A DNA stretch of 64,000 nt from contig CAMREV010000001.1 of the NCBI GenBank assembly GCA_947041945.1, positions 1 to 64,000 on the forward strand, in the 5' to 3' direction. Under the pieces are notes generated by a model. It was not told where the DNA came from, made no database searches, and worked only from the letters and a program-made list of their open reading frames with translations. The translations under genes were made by a program, and so were the position numbers. The DNA comes from an uncultured Mycoplasmataceae bacterium (GTDB taxonomy: Bacteria; Bacillota_I; Bacilli_A; Mycoplasmatales; Mycoplasmoidaceae). This document shows positions 27,240 to 55,047 of this stretch, one piece after another (position 1 is the first letter of the stretch; the number at the start of each line of letters is the position of its first letter).

Positions 27240-30200
27240 ATGCAATCTAAAACTAATCATTCAATAATTTTAAAAAAATCTAAAAACTTAATATCTTTTT
27301 CTTCAAAAGATTCTGCAATAAGAAGTTCTGATTCAAGAAGTAAATTTTTTGATATAAGTGGATATGCTAATAATAATTTAATTGATTTTTTCGATTTTAT
27401 TTCTTTTGAAAAAAATTCATCACAAAAATTTTCATTTCTTTTAGAAGATTATGAATATATTTCAAGTTCTAAAGATGTTAAGGAATTACAGAAAAAATTA
27501 GAAAAAATAAACTTTGAGTTAAACAAAGGTGAGCAAAAAATGCTTACAGCTAACTTTGAAGGTTTAAAAGAGAAAATAATTGCTAAATTTTCTTCACAAA
27601 ACGTAAGTGTTCAAAAAAAATTAGAAAAGCTTCAATTAGATGCAAATAATGCAGAAATTGATACTTCTATTTATCCTTTATACCTATCTGTATTCTTTTT
27701 AAAGGGGACTACAAAAAATGGAGATGTCGTAAATGCTCCTTTATTTTTAATACCTATTAAAATTGAAGTATTAGATGACAACATAAAAGTTTCTAAAGTT
27801 GATAATGAATTTATTATTAATGAAAAATTAGAAGCATTTTTATTAAAACAATATACATTTAAAAAAGAATTTTTAAAATGTAAAAATTATGTTGAACTTA
27901 TCAGAATTATTTCAGAAGGAACAAAAGCAGAATTAAAAGGTCTTGATCTACAAAAACCAATGAATTCTGAATTTGAACCTTTTATCTCACATAATAGTGA
28001 CCAAATAAGGGTTTTATTTAGAAAGCTTTCAATTGAAAGAAATGCTGCCTTACAAATGATTGATCCAAAAGGTGGATTACTTAAAGGTGATATTGAAATA
28101 ATTTCAAAAAGAAATGAACTTGGTTTAGTTTTTAAAACTAAATCACTAACTACAACTCATGGGCCCCATGTTCAAAGTGTTATTGAAAAAAATTCTATAT
28201 CTCAAATTGGTAGACCTTTAAATATTTATCAAAAATATGCTGTTGAATCTTCACTAAATGAAGATACTTTAATTCATGGTCCGCCTGGTACTGGTAAATC
28301 AGAAACAATTGCAAACATAATTGCAAATGTTATTAAATTGGGAAAAACATCATTATTAGTTTCTGAGAAAAAAGCTGCATTAGAAGTTTTAGAAGAAAGG
28401 TTATACGATCTTTCTGATATTGTTCTTTTTGCTTTTGACATGAATGATAAAGATAGATTTTATGAAAAAATTAATAAGATTGGAGAATTATTTCCTAAAA
28501 AAATTGATTCTGAAATAATTAACAAACAAAAAATTAATATAAATAAAAATGACAAATTATTCAAAGACTTAAAATACGATTTAAGTAGAATAAATGAAAT
28601 TAATAGAGCAAGAGTAACAACTGGTGCTAATTTTTATAACTATTTAAATACACTAAAGTTATTTGATAAATTAAGACTTAAATATCTTGCTGATAATGTT
28701 TTTTTAGCTCATTTAAAATCAATTGAAGCAAGACTTGATGCATTTGTTATTGATGTTTATGAACATTCACATAGCTTAATAAGTGATCTTTTTGAATTAA
28801 GTAAAATTTTATTACCAAAACATTTTGATAATATTCTAAATAATTTTAATAAGTTAAAAGATGTTCATATTTTAATGTCTTCTTTTACTGACAAAAGAGT
28901 TACAATTGCTACAAACTTTGTTTTAAATGGTTCTGTAAGTAAAATTGGTGTTCCTGGTAGAAGTTTAAATAAAGAAGAATCTTATTCTGAAAAAAAAATT
29001 GAAGAGCTAATTAGAAAATGTGCCGCAGATTCTCAACTAACAAAATTTATTCTTCAAAAAGAAGAAGTTTTTACTTTTATGCATTTCTTAGATGTACAAG
29101 AACTTTCACAATATAACAACCTATTATTATGAAGTGAAAAACTAGATATAAACATTCTAGATTCTATTTTTGATAAAAATCTATTTAATTACAAAGACAA
29201 ATATGATAACTATTATGATAGTTTAAATCTTGTTCCAAAAAACACAGACAAAATTATATTGCAAGATCATTTAAAAAAGATTAGAACAATTTATGAAAGT
29301 TTAAGTGATGAAAAGAAAAAAGTTTGAGAGCAAATAATTACTTATTCTTTAAGAAAAGAAAAGTTAAGTGTTAATAAATTTATAAAAAAATTCTATGAAG
29401 AGCTTAGAATAATTTTCCCTGTTTGAATAATGAATCCAACACAAGTATCATTAATTGTTCCTCTAAAAAGAGAAACATTTGATTATGGTATTTTTGATGA
29501 GGCAAGTCAAATGTTCTTGGAAAGAGCTTTCCCAGTAGTATATAGATGTAAAATAAATGTTATTGCAGGTGATGAGAAACAATTAAGACCAACATCATTC
29601 TTTCACTCTAGAAATGAGATAGAAGATGAAGAAGAAGATTTAGAAAATGATAATGTTGAATCATTATTAGATAAAGCTAAACTTTGTATGTGAAGTGAAT
29701 TCCATTTAAAGAACCACTATAGAAGTTTAAATAGTAATTTAATTGATTTTTCAAATAGAAACTTTTACAACTCATCTTTAAACACAGCATCAGTAAATAC
29801 TGATTTAATGAAATCTTCAATCGTTGTTTATAATGTTCCTGGAATTTACAATGAAAGAGTTAACGAAGTGGAAGCTGACACTATTGTTAATATTATTGGT
29901 TCAGAATATAAAAAATTCGAAAAAATACTTGTTGTTACATTAAATGTTCCACAATCAGAATTAATAGATCAAAAAATCTTTCAATCAGAGTTATATTTAA
30001 ATGAAGAAATTAGAAATAAAATTGATTCTGGTAATATTCAAATTAAAAACTTAGAAAACGTTCAAGGAAATGAAGCGGACTTAGTTATTTTATCAATATG
30101 TTTTGCTAAAAATTCATATGGTTTATTTAAAAATCATTTTGGTGTTCTAAGTCAAAATGGTGGTGGAAATAGATTAAATGTTGCAATCACTAGAGCTAAA

Positions 30201-30731
30201 AAACAAATGATAGTAGTTAAAAGTATTAAATCAGAAATGATCAAATCAACTGAAAGTAATGAAACATTTAAAAAGTTCATTCACTATGTTGATAATGTTG
30301 ATTCATTCTATGAAAGAACATGAAGTGATCAAGTTGTTGAAACACATAAATTCCCTTCAAAATTCCATGAAGAAATTAATAATTTATTAATGACAATAAT
30401 TAATTTAAATAAATATAGAATATCTTATGACTTCAAAATTGGTAATGAAATTCTTGATTTTGCTTTATTACAAAAAAACTCTACCGATGTAACATTAGGG
30501 ATTGTTTTAGATTCTAAGAAAAATAGATTTGATTTACAAAGAAGAGTTGAATTAGCTGATAACCAAAACTTCTTAGAAAATAGAGGTTATAAAGTACTTA
30601 GAATTCTTGAAATTGAATGAAATCTGTACCCTTGAAGAACAACTGATCAAATATTCAAAACAATGATAGTTGATGACTATAACTCTAAGAATATTGAGTA
30701 CTATAGAGGAGAATATAAAAATAAAATCTAA
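27240..30731 (+). CDS. Large superfamily 1 helicase with a PD-(D/E)XK-like C-terminal domain
   Basis: 1163 residues, joined through several TGA codons. After an N-terminal domain of about 340 residues, Walker A is HGPPGTGKSET (about 346). Motif II is FDEAS (about 749), followed by AGDEKQLRPTSFF. The C-terminal motor has NVQGNEADLVILS and LNVAITRAKK, as in Dna2/UPF1-like helicases (AAA_11/AAA_12). The last 110 residues (KFHEEINNLL...ILDFALL...LGIVLDSKK...GYKVLRILEIEW) resemble the nuclease-like domain found at the end of DUF4011-type helicases, but the usual acidic residue before VDG-like D is V. Similar large helicases of unknown role occur in other mycoplasmas. Confidence 0.85.
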
Positions 30732-31044: not shown

Positions 31045-31074
31045 AAAAAAACTACATTAATTTGTAGTTTTTTT
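31045..31074 (-). terminator. Terminator of the thyA-folA/folD operon
   Basis: AAAAAACTAC (31046-31055) pairs with GTAGTTTTTT (31064-31073) with an 8-nt loop; the run of A on the plus strand gives a U-run on the minus-strand transcript. It overlaps the folD stop. Confidence 0.75.
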
Positions 31075-32364
31075 ATTTTGTAAATTTGTGGCATTTAGTA
31101 AGTTTAAAATCATCATTGTAACAGTCATAGGACCAACACCTCTTGGGACAGGTGTTATTAAACTACATTTTTTTATTACCTTTTCAAAATCAATATCACC
31201 GCAGATTTTATTATCCTTGCTTCTGTTGATTCCTACATCAATTAAAATTGCTCCCCTTTTTATATCCTTATCAGTGATCAATTTTTCTTTACCAACAGCA
31301 GTTATTAATATGTCTGCATTTGAAGTAATTTTTCTTAAATTATTTGTTTTGGAATGACATGTGGTAATGGTAGCATTTTCATTTAATAATAACAATCCTA
31401 ATGGTTTACCTACAATATTACTTCTTCCAACAATAACAATATTTTTAGATTGAATTTTTATGTTACTTCTTTTTAGTATTTGAACAACAGCATTTGGAGT
31501 GCAAGGTAAGATACTTTCTCTTTGAATATTAAAAAGATTTCCAATGTTTATGTTGTTTAAACAATCAACATCTTTTAATGGATCAATTTTATTTAAAATT
31601 TTATTAGTATCAATATTGCTTGGTAATGGTAGTTGAACAAGAATTCCATTAATTGATTTATCTTTATTACATTTATCAATATAATTAGACAATTGAGCAG
31701 TAGTTGTTTTTTCAAATTTTTTTACTATAGCTTTGATTCCCACTTCTTTTGCTAATTTAACTTTGTTATTAATATAAATAGAACTAGCAAAATCATCACC
31801 CACATTTACAATAACAAGTGATGGTTTTTTATTGTATTCCTTTATTAAGTAGTTATTTTTTATTATCAGTTCATTTTTTATTTGTTTAGATATTTTATAT
31901 CCAGATAATATTTTTGTTTTATAGTAATTAATTTTAAAGTCTTTTCTATTTATAGATTTAACAAGTTTAAAATAATTCTTATTTATATCTAATTTCATGT
32001 CACTTTTATATTCTTTTCTGATAACTGATTCTATTATTTCATCAGCATATGGTAAGAATAAATTAATAATTTCTTTTCCACCAATTACATAGATATCTTC
32101 ATGAATGCTTTTTTCAACAACTCAATCAATGCTATCTGTTACCATAGCATTTTTTATTTTTAAATTTTTATCTTTTGAGAAAATAATATTCTCTCTTTTA
32201 GGTAACAAACGTCCAATTGATTCATATGTTTTTCTTCCCATTAAAACAGTTTTGTTAATTGTATTTTTTTTGAAATGAGACATTTCTTCTTTATTGACTC
32301 AAGGCATTTCTTTTTCATAAGAAAAACCATTTCTTTTGTCAATGCAATAAATAATTTTAATCAT
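31057..32364 (-). CDS. folA-folD: Fused dihydrofolate reductase - FolD methylene-THF dehydrogenase/cyclohydrolase
   Basis: 435 residues in one frame, with a TGA read as Trp in IDWVVEK. Residues 1-150 are [43 protein letters not shown] and a C-terminal strand segment. From about 152 FolD follows: [41 protein letters not shown] and [14 protein letters not shown]. No stop or new ribosome site separates the two. DHFR regenerates tetrahydrofolate oxidised by ThyA, and FolD interconverts methylene-, methenyl- and formyl-THF. The start overlaps the thyA stop by 1 nt (TAATG), so the operon covers the complete thymidylate cycle. Confidence 0.88.
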
Positions 32365-33230
32365 TATACTGATACCTTTGCTTTTATGAATGGATGAAAA
32401 TCATAGTTAATTAATTTTATATCTTCAAACTTAAAATCATATAAGTTTTTTATATTTTTATTTAACTCTATTTTTGGTAATTTTTTAACATCTCTTGATA
32501 ATTGTTTATCAATAGCTTCTAAATGATTAGTGTAAATGTGACAATCACCAATTGTATGAATAAATTCATATGGTTCTAAATCACATGCTTGAGCAACCAT
32601 GTATGTTAACAATGAATAAGAAGATATGTTAAAAGGAACTCCCAGGAACAAATCTGCACTTCTTTGATATAACTGACATGATAATTTATTTTTGTTAACA
32701 TAAAATTGAAAAAAACAATGGCATGGAGGCAATAACATATTTTCTATTTCATTTGGGTTTCAAGAAGAAACAATTAATCTTCTACTTGAGGGATTATCCT
32801 TGATTTCTTTAATGACATTTTTTAATTGATTAATTCCATTGAAGTTATTTCATTGCTTGCCATACACGGGTCCTAAGTCTCCCCATTTTTTTGCAAATTC
32901 ATTATCATATTTTATTTTTTCTATAAATTCATCAATTGTCTCATTTTTAAAAGAACTAGATTTTTTAAAATTTTCATATGGTCATTCATTTCAAATTTTT
33001 ACATTATTATCAACTAAATATTTAATATTAGTATCACCTTTAATAAATCATAGTAATTCATGCACTACAGCATCAAAATTCACTTTTTTTGTAGTGATGA
33101 TTGGAAATTCATTCTCTAGGTTATATCTTTCTTGAGAACCAAATATAGATATTGTCCCAGTTTTTGTTCTATCTTCTTTGGGTGAACCATTATTTTTTAC
33201 TAGTTTAATTAGATCTAAATATTTTTTCAT
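32364..33230 (-). CDS. thyA: Thymidylate synthase
   Basis: 288 residues. It methylates dUMP using methylene-THF. The active-site segment [13 protein letters not shown] holds the catalytic Cys, and [25 protein letters not shown] and [10 protein letters not shown] complete the family pattern. Trp residues are TGA except one. The ATG at 33230 was chosen because AAGG lies 7 nt upstream; an in-frame TTG two codons earlier is less likely. It overlaps the folA-folD start. Confidence 0.96.
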
Positions 33231-33295
33231 AAGCAAACCTTAAAAGAAGTTATATTGTTAAAATTATATTATTAAAAATAAAAAAAATACTAACG

Positions 33296-34654
33296 TTATT
33301 CTCCGTTTAGCATTTTTCTTATTTCTGACTGAATACTATGTAAATCAGTTTTAAAATTTTCTTTAATAAACTTATCTAATTTATCAATATTAATTTCTGC
33401 TCATCTCATATGTCTAGGATTTAAAATTCTCACCTTATCAATTTTGTAAGCTTCTTGATCTCTATTTGCTTTTATGTTGTTAAATAGATAAAAACACAAT
33501 GCATCAAATAGGTATGTATTTCTAAATTTTCATTCATCATCAAAGTAAATGTTAAATAAATTATTATTAAATATTGCAAATGAAGTTTCCTCAACTTCAC
33601 ATTTTTTAAATCCACAATTAAATTCAGGAAGTAATTCTACATTTCTATCGCTAATTTCACTGCTTCCTAATATGCTAATGAATTCTCTTTTACTTCTTAG
33701 AAGTTCATCAACTATTCCTTCACTTAATCTATCAAAATTTCTGTCCATATATTTTAAAAAATTATTATTGTTAAGTTTAACATCTTCATTTATTGATCAC
33801 TCTTCAATAAATCTAATTCTATTATTTCATTCAATTATAGAAATTCAAATTATTGATTTCATACATTTTGATTCACTTCTATTTGTAAATAAAGATTTAA
33901 CTTTTTGATCAAACTCATTTACTACTTTTTTATTATGAAGATTACTTTTTGATTCATTTAATTCACTAATGAATTTTTCAACATTTTCATTATTTTTAGA
34001 ATAAATTGCAACAATAAATTTAATAAGAATTGTTAAAGCAATTTCATACAAATCATAATTCTTTACATTTTCAACAATATAGTTATTGCTATCAAGTAAA
34101 TTCATATCTTCAGAAGGTATAAAAAACATGTCTCATTTTTTTGATTCATTATTTTTAACAGTACATCTTTTTAGAAAGAAACCATTAATTTTATTTTTAT
34201 AGAAGATATACTTTCATTGATTTTCTTGAACAAATTTTTTATTTGTATTTATAAATCAAGTTTTTTCAAAAAAAGATTTTATTGATTTACTTATATTTTC
34301 AAAATCATAACAATAAAAAACAACATTGAATTGCTTGCTATCAAAATTTTCTCATAAAGCATCAAATGTACTAAAAGATGTTTTTCCAAATTCATTTCAA
34401 GCAACAAATGATTTTGTTTTTTCATCAAAATTTAAAAAATAATAGTCTTTAACCTTTGAATAATCAAATTGTTCTCTCTTGAAGAAAGAATAATTTTTTT
34501 CATTTTCATCTCACATATTTATAAATTCATTATACTTTTCAGCATTAGAAATATCGTCTATTAAAAATAAAAAGTCAAATAATTTTCTTACTTTTTTAAT
34601 TTTTTTTAAGTCATTAAAAGATAAAATTTCTTTTTTCAAATATCTATTGTTCAT
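33296..34654 (-). CDS. Protein of unknown function, third gene of the Abi_2 unit
   Basis: 452 residues with many TGA Trp codons and an unusually high Trp, Phe and Asn content. No signal or membrane segment was seen. The C-terminal motif LNPRHMRWAEINIDKLDKF and a central helical stretch (YDLYEIALTILIKFIVAIY) stand out, but I cannot assign a family. It lies downstream of a membrane protein and an Abi_2 protein on the same strand, with a 33-nt gap, so it is probably the last gene of that unit. Confidence 0.7.
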
Positions 34655-34687: not shown

Positions 34688-35818
34688 TTATTTATGATTT
34701 TCTCATTTTTTAAAATTCTTGTTGAACAAGAATTTAGACAATATAATTACTACAAAAAAAGTTGCAATTATAAGTATTAAAAAGAAAACTGATTGTCAAC
34801 CACCATTGTAGAAATTAGGGTTAGTGTCTCCATAATAAGGGATAATGTTACCATTTAAATTTGTAACAAAACCATAAACACTAAAATTCGTAAAAAATGG
34901 AAGAGAGTAAACAAATGCACCATATATAGCTGGCATTAATAATGCATGAACTAAATAACTAATTCCTTTTTCTGTTTTTTGGTTTGATCTTTTTAGTAGT
35001 AATACACAAAACAAAATAAATGAAAGCGGATTAATAAAATGAAATCAAATTGATCTTGTAGTATTTTCAGCATCTGCAAATGGTGTGTGATAAAGAGAAA
35101 TCATAAAGAAAAATGATAAGGAAAATATAATTCCAATAATCGACATATAAGACACCATTGCTAATGTAAAAGAATTATTCTTAAAAAAGAATCTATGTCC
35201 AGTAACAACTAGTAGAAACATAAATATAAAAGATCCAATGTTACCTCACTCTGTAAAATATGTAAGGTTATTTAATATTAAAGAGTCAGTAGGAAAATTA
35301 TTATTTGTTCCTTCATAAACAAATGCAAAGCTAAAGGCGATTACACTTATACAAAATTGCAATGCAACTGAAATTGTATTTTGTATAAGGATTAATTTTT
35401 CCTTATCATTGTTTGCTTTGTAAAAACAAAATATTTTAAATGTACTATCACTTGAATATTCATGAGCAATATATTCTTTTAATTTTTTTTCTTGAATTAA
35501 TTTATATAGGAAATAAAAACCAATTATAAACGAAAATGGCGAAGCAATAATATTTATAATTTTTTTTTTGAAAACATCATTAATGTATAAAAGGTATCCA
35601 ATGAAAATAGTAATAAATAAGACAACACTTAAACTTACTAAAAATATTGCCCTTTGTTCTTGTGATACAATTGATAAACTTGAATTTATTTCGCTATTTA
35701 AATCAGGTGAATTAAAAACAATCACAGAAAAATATATTAATAATATTAGAAATACTAATTGTATTACTGAATAAAAAATCAGTTTTATATTTTTCCTTGT
35801 GTTCTCATATTTGTTCAT
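34688..35818 (-). CDS. Polytopic membrane protein, function unknown
   Basis: 376 residues with about eight to nine hydrophobic segments, for example LIFYSVIQLVFLILLIYFSV near the N-terminus and FFLILIIATFFVVIILSKFL near the C-terminus. The central part (FTEWGNIGSFIFMFLL...WFHFINPLSFILFCVLLL) resembles Pr6Pr/DUF1600-type mycoplasma membrane proteins, at low confidence. It lies 2 nt downstream of the Abi_2-like gene and is almost certainly co-transcribed. Confidence 0.7.
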
Positions 35819-35820
35819 TT

Positions 35821-36900
35821 TTATTTCATCTCAATATTGACATTCTTTTTTATTATATCTTTTGTTACTTTACTTATTTTTTTATTTGAATTTTTATTTT
35901 TCTCAAAAATATATTCCTTAATTTCTTTTAGAATTTTATCATTTTCTATACGTCTAATTCCCTGAATTATTTTCACAATAAAAGAAATATTGTATGATTT
36001 ATTAATGTGTACTTCTTCTCCAATTATCGATGAAAAAGTTTTGGCTAATTCTTCTGTTTCTATTTTTATTTTTCAATCTATTATTTTTGAATTGTGAGCT
36101 AGTGCATTCCTAAACAAAGAAAACTTTTCTAAAAGTTCAATTAGTGCAACGCTTTCTATTTCAAAATTATTATCCTTGTAGATATTTCCATAGTCAAAAA
36201 ATTTCTCTCTCAAACTGTCTTGCAGATCATCACTAAGTGATTTATAAATTCAAATTAATTCTGAAAATGTTCAAGATGATGATAATGTTTGTAAATGAAC
36301 TAATGAATACTTTTTTATAGTCGATCATTCTTTTAAATTAGAAACTGAATCATCAACTTTTCTAATTATTTCTTTGTTCTCAAATTCTCTATTATATCTT
36401 GTTACATATTCAAATCATTTATTACGACTTGCATATTTTAATAAATATTTTTTAATGTTATTTGAATCTTCATTTTTATATTTTCTAACAATTTCTTTTG
36501 GAGTGTAATTACCAAATATTTGTTTTACTGATTTCTCATTAAGTAAGACAACATAAGGACCATCCAAATATTTTTCAAAAGCTTTGCAAAGAATGTGAGT
36601 AATTAGTGCATTTAAATGAAGTTCAATACCTTTAAAATATTTTCAAATAATAGAAGATATTGTTCTATCAATGTCAAAAAGGTATCTAATATCATCTGAA
36701 TAAATCATCTCTGAAAATGTTTTTTTATCTTCTTGATAAAGATCTTCAAATCAGTACCCATTTATTAAGATTTCATAATTGTAATCTTCTAAATATAAAA
36801 TAAACATATTTTTTGATTCTTCATCAATGAATTTCAAACCCTTATTTTCAAGGTTTTTTATTTGATCTTCAATTGATAAAAATTTATTTATTGATTCCAT
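35821..36900 (-). CDS. Abi_2 (AbiD/AbiF) family HEPN protein
   Basis: 359 residues. The N-terminal pattern is a NGYWF segment, then IRYLFDIDRTISSIIWKYFKGIELHLNALITH (location about 70-105), then FSELIWIYKSL, and the HEPN motif R264-N-A-L-A-H269. This order (GY..F, FDR.L...IEI..R, F..L...Y..L, R-N..AH) is the Abi_2 layout. HEPN proteins with R-x4-H are usually RNases; Abi_2 members have been linked to abortive phage infection. It starts a three-gene minus-strand unit with a membrane protein and an unknown protein. Confidence 0.7.
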
Positions 36901-39928: not shown

Positions 39929-39934
39929 TATAAT
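39929..39934 (+). promoter_or_regulatory. -10 element upstream of the GT80-like gene
   Basis: TATAAT lies 35 nt before the start; AAGGA precedes the ATG at 39969. No clear -35 is seen. Confidence 0.4.
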
Positions 39935-39968
39935 TAATAAAATAATAAATTAATTATTAAGGAACAAA

Positions 39969-41768
39969 ATGAAAAAAAGAAATTTTAAAAATAATCTGAA
40001 ATATATCCTAATTGGTATCGGTGGAGTTTTGCCTCTAACTGCTATCCCTTTTTTAGGTTTATTTCCTCATCACAACAATGCTCTTGTTAACACAGTTAAC
40101 ACAAAAGCTTTAAATACAGATATTTCTGTTTCACCTTATAATGACGATTTAGCAGCAACAGCAAAACCTGAATTTCAAAATGCAATTTATCAAGATGCAT
40201 TTGAAAAAGCTACATATGATCCAGATAGTATATTAGTTTATTCTATTTATTGATTTGGTGTGTTTCATAGATTTGGATTGGTTTCTCATATACTTTCTGT
40301 ATTAGAAATAAACCCAAATCAAAAAATATATGTAATGGAAACTTCAAAGAAAAATGATTACTCACCATTACTTGCATCAAACCCTGATGGAACTAGAAAA
40401 TATCCAAATGTAAAAATAGTTGAATCAGCACCAGGTTTTGATAGCACTGATGGTGTTTGATTATTATCTAATAGATTTATTACGCCAATTGACTTTTTTA
40501 AAGATATATATAAAGAAAATCCAGACGCTAAAATTCATGGATATTTTGCTGATTTCACAATTTTAGAAGTAATGAAAAATTTCTTTAATGGTTCAAATCT
40601 ACCGATATTAAAAAAGAATATACATGACTACTGAGGAATGTTTAATAAATTTGATTCATTAAGCATTTTTGCTGATGGAACAGGTTCTGTAGATTTTTTT
40701 AACACAACTTTTTATGACTACCTTCTTAAGGCTGGTATTGGTGAATATACAGAAATGGCTAGTAATACACCAGGTACTACAAAATTTGAGTACAAAGAAG
40801 CTGCAAACTTTAGAAAGCAATTTTTAGAAAGTCAAAACAAGGGAGAAGATTTCGCTCATAAATTTTTAGAAAAAAATAATGCAATCATGTATGTTGCATC
40901 TCTAATTACTACAAAAGATTTTAATAATGATAATGTATATCCTATGAAGGATGCTAGTGGTAACCCAGTACAATATAAAGATTCTAAATTTTTTCTTCCA
41001 ACAACTGAATTTATAAGAGATGTTAATAGAACAGGTTCTACTTTTTTAAAAACTTCAAATAATGAATTTTTTAATCCATATAATTCATATGAAGCTGACC
41101 TTATAGAATCATTCAAAAAGCTTCCAATAGATAAATTTGAAGAATTAACAAAAATTTTAAAAGCAAAAGATGTTTTTGAAGATAAAGATCTTGAATTTCA
41201 AATGGAAAACAAAATCAACGTTGTTTATTCTGGTACACTTTTAAATAATAGTACTGTATCTCCTAGTGCTGAAAAAGCTACTAGAAAGTCAGAGATTGAC
41301 AATCTAAGAGCAATTAAAATTCTAGTTGAAAGAGATAACCCAGGAAAAAAAGTTCAAATTATTTACAAAGGTCACCCAAGAGATTATACAATAGCAGCGA
41401 TTCAAGGTGCTTTTAAACAAATAATAGATGAATATAAGTTAACTGATGTTCCAGAAATATTAGTAGTAGATCCAACTATTCCTTATGAATTATACTTATT
41501 TAGTGGTTTATTTGATCCAAACCCAACAACTGGTAAGGAAGTAAAACTTTACTCAACTTATTCAACAATTATATGATTCTTATTTGCAGCTGGTAGAGGT
41601 GATGATATTATCAAAATTGCTATAAGTGAAAACACATTTACTAACTCAAAATATATTGAAAATATTTATGGTTTGAATTCAAGAATATTTAACACTGTTG
41701 GCGGTCCCGGAGGAAACGACAAAATTACTACTACAGAAAAACTTTTAGCTGAAGCAGGAATTAAATAA
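39969..41768 (+). CDS. Putative membrane-anchored GT80-family sialyltransferase-like protein
   Basis: 599 residues, joined through four TGA codons. A basic N-terminus and hydrophobic stretch (about 10-31) form a signal or anchor without lipobox Cys, so the enzyme should face outward. Three elements match Pasteurella/Photobacterium GT80 sialyltransferases from memory. First is ADGTG (235-239) in place of DDGS, keeping the second Asp. Second is YSGTLL near 420 in place of FTGTTTW. Third is IYKGHPR with His469 as the candidate acid, followed by [14 protein letters not shown] and a YSTYSTI segment in place of the CMP-binding SSLYFS. GT80 enzymes move sialic acid from CMP-sialate to galactosides. 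Donor and acceptor in this organism are unknown. Confidence 0.65.
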
Positions 41769-41770
41769 AA

Positions 41771-42316
41771 ATGAACAAAGTTAATGTTGTAATTGAGATT
41801 CCAAAAGATTCAAAAATAAAATACGAATATGATAGAAGAACAAAACAAATAGTTGTTGATAGGATCTTATATGGTTCTAGTTCTTATCCTCTAAACTATG
41901 GTTTCATAAGAGAAGCCTTAGATTGAGATGGAGATGAATTAGATGCACTAATTATTTCAGATCAAACATTTATTCCAGGTTGTGTTGTTCCTACAAGAAT
42001 TATTGGTGCAATGGAAATGATTGATGGCGGAGAAACTGATACAAAGTTAATCACAGTTATTGATTGTGATCCAAGATATAAACACATCAATAAGCTAGAA
42101 GATCTTTCAAAACATACTCTACTTGAAATAAGAGATTTCTTTGAGAATTATAAAAATCTTCAAGATAAGACAGTTGAAATAAAAGGATATAATTCAATCG
42201 AATGAGCAATGCAAGAATATAATGAATGTGTTGAACTAATGAATAAATACAAAGATCTTCCAAAAGCAGATTTTGTTAAAAAAATGATGATTGAACACCC
42301 AGAAAAATATAAATAG
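41771..42316 (+). CDS. ppa: Inorganic pyrophosphatase
   Basis: 181 residues, family I soluble enzyme. Active-site segments are [26 protein letters not shown], and the signature [10 protein letters not shown] (first Trp from TGA), with DCDPRY later. It hydrolyses PPi, pulling biosynthetic reactions forward, including any CMP- or CDP-sugar formation. It begins 2 nt after the GT80-like gene. Confidence 0.96.
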
Positions 42317-52896: not shown

Positions 52897-55047
52897 ATGT
52901 TTGAAAAATTTAAATCCGATAATCCAAACTTTATTCTTTCTGAAGATCAATCAAAAAAGTTAAATGATGGCAAAGTTATATATTTGTTTGGAAAAAACGG
53001 AAGCGGTAAAACAACTTTGTCAAGGGAAATAGAATCTTATTTTTATAAAGAAGTAGAATTATTTATTTTTAATGAAGACTATATAAGTAAAAACTTATAT
53101 GTTCAAGATCTTAATTCATTAAAATCAGAAGTGAAACAACTTCCATCCACAAAAGAAAATACTTTCAAAATATTTTTTGGAAAAGAGTTAATCAATTTAA
53201 AAGATAAATTAGATAAAAAGATAGATTATTTTAAGCAACTAAAAGATCAATTTAATTCTCATAAAATTAAACCAAAATACATGTATGAATTAAAAGAAGT
53301 TAATTTAGAAGGTAATGTTGATTTAAAAAGTTGAAATGATTTAAAAATAAATGATAAAAATATTATTAAAAATATGAAAAACTTTAACGATATGGACAAA
53401 ATAAAAAAAGAATTTGATAGTAAATTTAGTTCAATTAAGAATTATAAAGATCAATTTGATTTTTATAAAGAAATAAATGATTTAAAAAAATGTATCAAGG
53501 ATCAAAATAAAAATATATTGCAAATAAATTCACTATATAAAGAAAAGATTAAAAATCAAGTAATAATTGATTTCCATGAAAATTCAAAAAATTATTTTGA
53601 AAAAGACACTATAGAATTTTTAGAAAAAGAATATCATTTATCTGATTTAGAAAAATATTTAGAAAAATGAAAAACAAATAAAAATGAAAAAATTGAATTG
53701 TTTGCAAAAAATAATAAAAAAATTTCAAATAAAATAATTAATATTGAAAAAAACAATCTTTTTGATAATTTGTTAGATGAAAAAAATAAAAATTTTATTA
53801 TGGAAACTAAAAAAAGAAACAGTATCAAAATAGATACTTATAGTAATGAAAATGCTATTTTTGAATTGGAAGAAGAAATTATTATTCATGGAAAAAAAGA
53901 AATAAAAAATTCTTTCGGAGCGTGACTAGAGGAAAATAAATGGTATCTTATAGATGACTGTGAAAATTTAAATGATTTATTTAATAAAATAATAAAATAT
54001 GACAAAAATATTAAGCTCATTAAGAAAGAAATAACAGAAAAAACTAATGATTTAGGAAAATCATTTATTGAAAAATTAAATAATCATATTAAAACATTAT
54101 CAAATGAAAACTTTAATATTTTATTTGAGTTAGAAAGTGTTTCAAATAGAAGTATGATTAAACTATATTTTAATAATAATAGAAATTTCAATAGTCTTTC
54201 TGCTGGTGAAAAGTCAATAATTTCTTTTGCGTATTTTTTAACTGATTTAGAGAATAATTTAATAAAAATTAAAAAACCTTTTATTGTTTTTATTGATGAT
54301 CCATTTGATTCAAATGATCATTACAAATATGATAATTTTAGCAAGATAAAATTTGAAAATATGGGACTTTCAGATTTTATAAAAAAAGTTTCTTTAGAAA
54401 ATAAAGTTAAATCAAAATTAATAATTACCACTCATAATATTCACATTTTAATGTCATTTATTAGAAGTTTACGTAGCGAACATAATGAAGATTTTTTTAT
54501 ACAACAAAATGATTTAACAAAAAGCAATATTTTTGTCAAAGAAATAGTTAATCATTCAAACAAGATTAATATAAATGACATTGATATAAAGCTTTTTTTT
54601 CCAATAGAAAAAAATATAACAGAATTTTTAAAAACCGCAATTGAAAAATTTATGAAAATAGAAAAATATAATGATATTGAAATTCAAATTTTTAAATTAA
54701 TTTTATGTTTATTAATTAAAATATACGATTCATCTGAATCAGAATTGAGAGCTAAATATAAATCATATATTAAAGAACACTCTCCTAAATGAAATGTAAA
54801 AGAAGAAAAAGTAATAAAAATAAGAGATATACCGATTAGTTTTAAAGAAATTAATAAACAAAATATAAAGATTTTTTTGGATAAATATTCAGAAAAAAAA
54901 GAATATAGCAATGACATTGTTATTTATTTGAATTTTATAAAAACAAAATATGAAAAAATTTTTTTGACTGAAGATCAAGAACAAATTAAAAGAATGAGAC
55001 ATAAAATATTTACATCAACATTATTCAATGATATATTAGAAGAATAA
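52897..55047 (+). CDS. AAA_13-type ABC ATPase, probable defence protein
   Basis: 716 residues. Walker A is GKNGSGKT (32-39), the ABC signature is LSAGE (434-438), Walker B is FIDDPFD (Asp467-Asp468) and the switch His513 is in TTHNIH. Between Walker A and the signature lies a coiled-coil region of about 380 residues, as in PrrC, RloC and other AAA_13 proteins. The C-terminal 190 residues are lysine-rich and carry no nuclease motif that I can name. PrrC and RloC are tRNA anticodon nucleases tied to phage defence. Position 215 nt after a DNA methylase suggests a modification-linked defence pair (inference). Most Trp are TGA, one is TGG. Confidence 0.72.

Follow-up and report, generated by a model that had tools for sequence, protein, structure and literature searches.

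What would an enzyme built like a bacterial sialyltransferase be doing on the outer side of a mycoplasma membrane? The question is raised by a gene of an uncultured mycoplasma that lies in the window, by which we mean the whole stretch of 64,000 nucleotides that was analysed. Leloir glycosyltransferases normally act in the cytoplasm, which is where the nucleotide sugars made by the cell are found. In the reading that we favour, and to which we give a probability of roughly 0.6, the gene encodes a GT-B glycosyltransferase that belongs to the clan of the bacterial sialyltransferases, is anchored in the membrane, faces outward and would work with a scavenged CMP-type donor.

The gene itself is real: a frame that starts with the ATG at position 39969, ends with the stop at 41768 and stays open for 599 codons under genetic code 4 (with four TGA codons read as tryptophan) is preceded by a ribosome-binding site (Table 1). 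It belongs to a genome assembly of 661 kb in 12 contigs, which is about 90% complete. On one flank lies a gene for a Bax1-I membrane protein, on the opposite strand. On the other lies the gene of an inorganic pyrophosphatase, with which our gene is probably co-transcribed, followed by genes of the arginine deiminase pathway and then by an amino acid permease. Pfam annotation of these flanks gave no sugar-related gene, and no pyrophosphatase match was found in two genomes of the same genus, both of which are incomplete assemblies. We considered whether the protein works together with the pyrophosphatase or the arginine deiminase genes downstream, and dropped the idea because the neighbours of the family members in other genera are different. 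Elsewhere in the window, a single gene on the minus strand (31057-32364) fuses a DHFR (residues 1-150) to a methylene-tetrahydrofolate dehydrogenase/cyclohydrolase (153-427), and it is adjoined by a thymidylate synthase gene (32364-33236). Also on the minus strand, a candidate phage defence gene (35821-36900) encodes an Abi-like protein (PF07751, E 4.2e-11); beside it stands the gene of a DUF1600 membrane protein (34688-35818), and near it that of a protein with no Pfam match (33296-34654). On the plus strand, a DUF4011 helicase of 1163 residues (27240-30731), which ends in a weak MTES_1575 nuclease domain, resembles the defence-type helicase-nucleases, and a 716-residue AAA_13 ATPase of the RloC/PrrC-like kind (52897-55047) is a possible defence gene.

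Table 1. Coordinates of the gene, of its signals and of the elements of its product (positions of the window; residue numbers of the protein)
Feature	Position	Strand	Basis
Candidate -10 element TATAAT	39929..39934	+	consensus match only; regional matches no commoner than in shuffles
Ribosome-binding site AAGGA	39959..39963	+	5 bases upstream of the ATG; direct sequence reading
ORF encoding the anchored protein P0001, of predicted sialyltransferase fold	39969..41768	+	599 aa, code 4, 18-member family
N-terminal hydrophobic stretch (residues 12-32) that follows a start rich in Lys/Arg; signal anchor, expected topology N-in/C-out	40002..40064	+	Kyte-Doolittle 2.12 at residue 13
D195, invariant Asp in Y-F-A-D; resembles F-N-D of neuA-linked polySTs (by eye)	40551..40553	+	18/18; F-N-D in A5
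A-D-G-T (235-238); D236, candidate general base (MhPST E153, PmST1 D141)	40671..40682	+	D236, G237 invariant
Predicted C-terminal Rossmann-like domain, ~residues 416-575, nucleotide-binding half	41214..41693	+	block pLDDT mostly 85-96
Y-S-G (420-422), first strand of the C domain	41226..41234	+	G422 invariant
K-G-H-P-R (467-471); H469, candidate general acid (MhPST H291, PmST1 H311)	41367..41381	+	K467, H469, P470 invariant in 18
P-Y-E (505-507); E507, candidate ribose-binding Glu (MhPST E323, PmST1 E338)	41481..41489	+	P505, E507 invariant; hhalign
S532-T533, candidate phosphate-binding pair (MhPST S339/T340, PmST1 S355/S356)	41562..41567	+	invariant in 18
Inorganic pyrophosphatase	41771..42316	+	starts 2 bases past the stop of the ORF above; PF00719 E 1.7e-52

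Taken alone, the window protein has no family match in Pfam, NCBIfam or the PDB sequences (matches to DUF2532 and to a histamine methyltransferase were rejected as chance), and as a query against genome contigs it gave no matches. The family was built stepwise: the window protein led to two first homologues, the profile of these three sequences led to more than a dozen, and an 18-member profile followed. With the latter, the family is found in 19 of the 320 genomes of the same bacterial order, in 8 of its 50 genera, while no match came from outside the order among 392 genomes sampled across the phylum. The members span several mollicute families, and most of them are only 17-32% identical to the window protein. 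Weak matches at profile positions 1 to about 90, which turned up in many genomes, were set aside as shared lipoprotein signal peptides. A contig search with the A4 profile gave four uncultured Mycoplasma MAGs with no host named, and a search of the open-access literature gave no paper on a sialyltransferase-like protein in mollicutes. The comparison with the GT80 and GT52 models, suggested as a check in the preliminary description, came out negative: the GT80 model PF11477 matches neither the window protein (E<=10) nor any of the 18 members (E<=1), and it found nothing in the source genome, though no control genome gave a match either, while the GT52 model PF07922 matches neither the window protein nor any of the 18 members. 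As PF11477 is not matched, the window protein should not be filed as GT80. The cut-off of PF07388 (23.3 bits) is passed by three f2 loci (G077, G155 and G121, with scores of 35.2, 32.0 and 31.8 bits among them) and the window protein does not match it; since only some f2 relatives reach this model, the window protein should not be filed as GT38 either.

An AlphaFold2 model computed from the 18-row alignment (pLDDT 72.9, pTM 0.79) was compared with the PDB by Foldseek. The comparison gave 18 matches at E<=0.001, every one a bacterial sialyltransferase: 17 are GT80 enzymes and one is MhPST (E 2.8e-5), the GT38 polysialyltransferase. The best match is PmST1 (2ihz, E 1.2e-10, probability 1.00), generic GT-B enzymes follow only from E 1.6e-3 (trehalose-phosphate synthase), and neither CDP-glycerol nor Kdo transferases are found among the best 50 matches. 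For a second AlphaFold model, of a distant lipoprotein member that is 18-19% identical to the window protein (L009), the seven best matches are again sialyltransferases, with the generic GT-B enzymes trailing them more closely than for the window model; most of the alignment rows are common to the two models, which are therefore only partly independent. A viral structure library gave nothing. The TM-scores to the sialyltransferases are moderate (0.36-0.44 by query length) and the rmsd amounts to 7-10 A over the whole length, so the relative packing of the two domains is unsure, and the identity to GT80 enzymes in the structural alignment is 11-15%. On these models, a GT-B fold of the bacterial sialyltransferase type is to us almost certain, and the GT80-like fold proposed from the letters alone is borne out by this predicted-fold check.

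The residues that are identical in all 18 aligned members are Y91, D195, D236, G237, G422, K467, H469, P470, P505, E507, S532 and T533; close to the start, all 17 alignment rows that reach K3 have this Lys as well. In MhPST, E153 acts as the base and H291 as the acid, K289 contacts the cytosine O2, E323 the ribose, and S339 and T340 together the phosphate, while T155 corresponds to S143 of PmST1 (PMC5517516); it follows from this last correspondence that the PmST1 base D141, in the same loop, also has a single residue between itself and that Ser. In PM0188, the important residues are D141, H311, E338, S355 and S356, to which H112 is added in PmST1 (PMC4202792). If one goes by the fold, the order of the motifs and the hhalign alignment, the mollicute family holds putative counterparts of E153, K289, H291, E323, S339 and T340 of MhPST and of D141, H311, E338, S355 and S356 of PM0188, PmST1 H112 being outside the set that was traced. 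In particular, K467 would be the counterpart of MhPST K289, the position of PM0188 S356 is an invariant Thr as is T340 in MhPST, and T238, counterpart of T155 and S143, is kept in 16 of the 18 members. In the hhalign comparison, the family was set against two polySTs that are neuA-linked and come from other members of the class (E 7.6e-5, with a probability of only 62), and this alignment pairs K-x-H-P-R and P-x-E. The conservation of DG and KxHP in the family lies far beyond chance, and both H469 and D236, for which the preliminary description asked conservation in homologues, are among the invariant residues. Its motif reading stood in part: KGHPR, DG and SGL are present and the order is that of GT80, but the spacing is not, since it is stretched, with 233 residues from base to His (170 in PmST1, 138 in MhPST), 38 from His to Glu (27 and 32) and 25 from Glu to Ser (17 and 16; reference numbering from PMC4202792 and PMC5517516). 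Nor is S-G-L (512-514) a motif, because this position varies among the relatives (SGL, YDV, ADA, KDF, etc.), while the conserved Y-S-G (420-422), P-x-E (505-507) and S-T (532-533) of the C domain had been missed.

The one anomaly of this active site is the Ala that precedes D236. Among the 18 members, position 235 is Ala in seven, Ser in five, Thr in five and Gly in one; being small in all of them, it is a trait of the family and not a lesion of the window gene. The D/E-D/E-G motif is thus incomplete family-wide, its first acidic residue being gone and its second acidic residue and Gly being invariant (18/18), and it is in this one defined way that the family, as aligned, departs from the published motif. 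In GT38, it is the second of the two acidic residues, E153 in MhPST, that serves as the catalytic base (PMC5517516). As this residue is kept as D236, the initial concern that the Ala could alter the activity was misplaced, and on the same ground we discarded the view that Ala235 inactivates the enzyme. The E152A change, which matches the loss seen here, does make MhPST a 300-fold worse catalyst (PMC5517516), and the family-wide loss of the first acidic residue counts against the reading that we favour.

The location of the protein is the next point to consider. Apart from the segment at residues 12-32, the window protein has no second strong hydrophobic segment on the Kyte-Doolittle scale. At the same N-terminal place, 9 of the 18 members carry a lipobox, and several match the mollicute lipoprotein signal models LP_plasma, MOLPALP and spiralin_LP. 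One member, L017, is devoid of a lipobox and has a strong hydrophobic stretch at its C-terminus. Because lipoproteins are exposed on the outer side, the catalytic part of these proteins would lie outside the membrane, and we hold an outward location of the enzyme to be very likely, in agreement with the N-terminal anchor that had been noticed at the outset and that is now extended, as anchor or lipoprotein signals, across the family.

Where, then, would the donor come from? No NeuB was found in 15 carrier genomes, and neither a member of the DHDPS/NanA family (sialate lyase) nor a BNR sialidase in the 15-16 carriers searched. PF02348, the CMP-sialate synthetase model, has no match in 12 of 15 carriers; its matches in the other three are weak, and the two that were inspected are IspD-like cytidylyltransferases by their motifs. 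The source genome, at about 90% completeness, has no match for NeuB, PF02348, DHDPS/NanA or the BNR sialidase either. The expectation that such a bacterium makes no CMP-sialic acid is thus supported, for NeuB and for any recognisable synthetase in the carriers, and, considering the outward site of the enzyme, any CMP-sugar donor would need to be scavenged. Animal cells make CMP-Neu5Ac in their nucleus and consume it in the Golgi, so its availability outside cells is not obvious; it could come from lysed host cells or be met in an intracellular niche. The availability of the donor is the weakest link of the sialylation reading. As a separate observation, in distant class relatives (L033 170-2325 and L034 290-2406) a PF07388 polyST-like gene directly adjoins a neuA-like gene, which by its reading encodes a CMP-sialate synthetase in the N-terminal half and a second domain fused to it.

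The same facts lend themselves to a glycosyltransferase of the same clan whose donor is not sialic acid, be it another CMP- or CDP-compound (Kdo-like, another nonulosonate or of the CDP-glycerol type) or a nucleotide sugar of its niche. Several carriers look Spiroplasma-like and may live in arthropods, and lineages with spiralin-type lipoprotein signals likewise suggest Spiroplasma and arthropod hosts, in which sialic acid is scarce; if the carriers are in arthropods, the explanation by mimicry, raised in the preliminary description, is weakened for the family as a whole. Moreover, what the conserved residues recognise in the donor is its CMP moiety and not the sugar (PMC5517516). The likeness of the Spiroplasma-like members to KpsC, a CMP-Kdo enzyme, would point the same way, but at E 0.78 it is not significant: the PDB sequence matches of the A2 and A3 profiles, to KpsC as to quinolinate synthase, are chance only. 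Against such a donor, the sialyltransferases precede all other GT-B enzymes in the structure matches of both models, and CDP-glycerol and Kdo transferases are missing from the best 50, so we regard it as rather unlikely.

A second alternative does away with the nucleotide sugar: acting mainly in the reverse or a side direction, the protein would take sialic acid off host glycans and bring it to the mycoplasma surface, as a sialidase or trans-sialidase assisted by CMP. Some GT80 enzymes, PdST for instance, do have sialidase and trans-sialidase side activities (PMC4202792), and mycoplasmas are reported to glycosylate their surface proteins extracellularly from host oligosaccharides with enzymes that are unassigned (PMC4657876, PMC12453214). 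However, the reaction reported in M. genitalium, M. pulmonis and Syn3A is a hexosylation, and these two papers do not mention sialic acid (PMC4657876, PMC12453214). Besides, a family missing from 301 of the 320 genomes of the order is unlikely to be a general enzyme, and on this distribution we rejected it as the general hexosylation enzyme of mycoplasmas. A trans-sialidase of this kind is thus improbable.

In the tree of the family, the f2 members form one clade and the f1 and f3 members are intermixed, which makes an ancient presence with losses, or some transfer, likely. Two genomes of genus g2 have two diverged lipoprotein copies each (L013 and L027 in G631, L014 and L028 in G624); the copies pair across genomes, so that the gene seems to have been duplicated before the two species parted. 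In two of the 19 genomes, the copy is broken by in-frame TAA stops (L062 in G203 and L073 in G402), and the former retains TDGT, KVHPR and the ST pair. Between the relatives, none of which is close to the window gene, dN/dS is 0.09-0.46, and their proteins are therefore under purifying selection. A loss of catalysis that would leave a surface lectin or adhesin on a GT-B scaffold, to which the outward anchor, the missing donor pathway, the fast divergence, the absent first acidic residue and the two disrupted copies would lend themselves, is very improbable, as glycan binding alone would not need base, acid, ribose and phosphate residues to be invariant in 18 diverged members.

For the scavenging glycosyltransferase that we favour, the starting points obtained by computation are the fold, the invariant catalytic set, the anchor, the selection on the relatives and the absence of the tested sialic acid genes. 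The C-terminal domain would grip the CMP-activated donor, for which the host or lysed cells would be the supply, through K467, E507, S532 and T533; H469 would stabilise the leaving phosphate, and D236, in the N-terminal domain, would deprotonate the acceptor hydroxyl, giving an inverting transfer. As acceptor, a glycan of the host or of the mycoplasma surface itself would serve. As far as structure and residues go, the protein behaves like a bacterial sialyltransferase. We infer that it is likely to be catalytic; that its donor is of the CMP type seems fairly probable, and that sialic acid is the sugar transferred is possible, somewhat short of an even chance. The broader proposition, that mollicute surface enzymes run CMP-sugar transfer outside the cell with a wholly host-derived donor and so decorate the wall-less surface with a sugar (sialic acid or one related to it) that the bacterium can neither make nor activate, is for now doubtful. 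More generally, an anchored enzyme with an intact CMP-donor site, in bacteria devoid of the donor pathway, would mean either that CMP-sugars are available outside these cells or that the fold has been put to a new use. For surface glycan capture, some wall-less bacteria have a concrete candidate in this family.

How does this family compare with the known systems? The extracellular hexosylation of mycoplasmas, the enzyme of which is unassigned, would likewise be an outward glycosylation with host-derived sugars, but it concerns another sugar, uses no nucleotide donor and has a far wider species range (PMC4657876, PMC12453214). With GT52, the meningococcal lipooligosaccharide sialyltransferase, it has in common the general HP motif and the logic of D/E-D/E-G, and GT52 is absent among the structure matches listed for both models. 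With GT38 (MhPST), the family has K-x-H, the ribose Glu and the S-T pair in common, and E-G-T there becomes D-G-T here; however, MhPST acts at the cytoplasmic face, whereas the window protein is anchored outside, with neither linked neuA nor capsule genes. With GT80 (PmST1/PM0188 and the Photobacterium enzymes), it shares the predicted fold, the motif order, the base Asp, the His of HP, the ribose Glu and the position of the Ser pair. It differs in that a small residue replaces the first Asp of DDG here, the second position of the Ser pair is Thr here, the motif spacing is wider, and the mollicute carriers are devoid of a recognisable CMP-sialate synthetase. The family is best described as an unnamed mollicute family, outward-anchored and without its own donor supply, within the clan of GT80, GT38 and GT52, the HP motif of which it carries as the invariant H469-P470.
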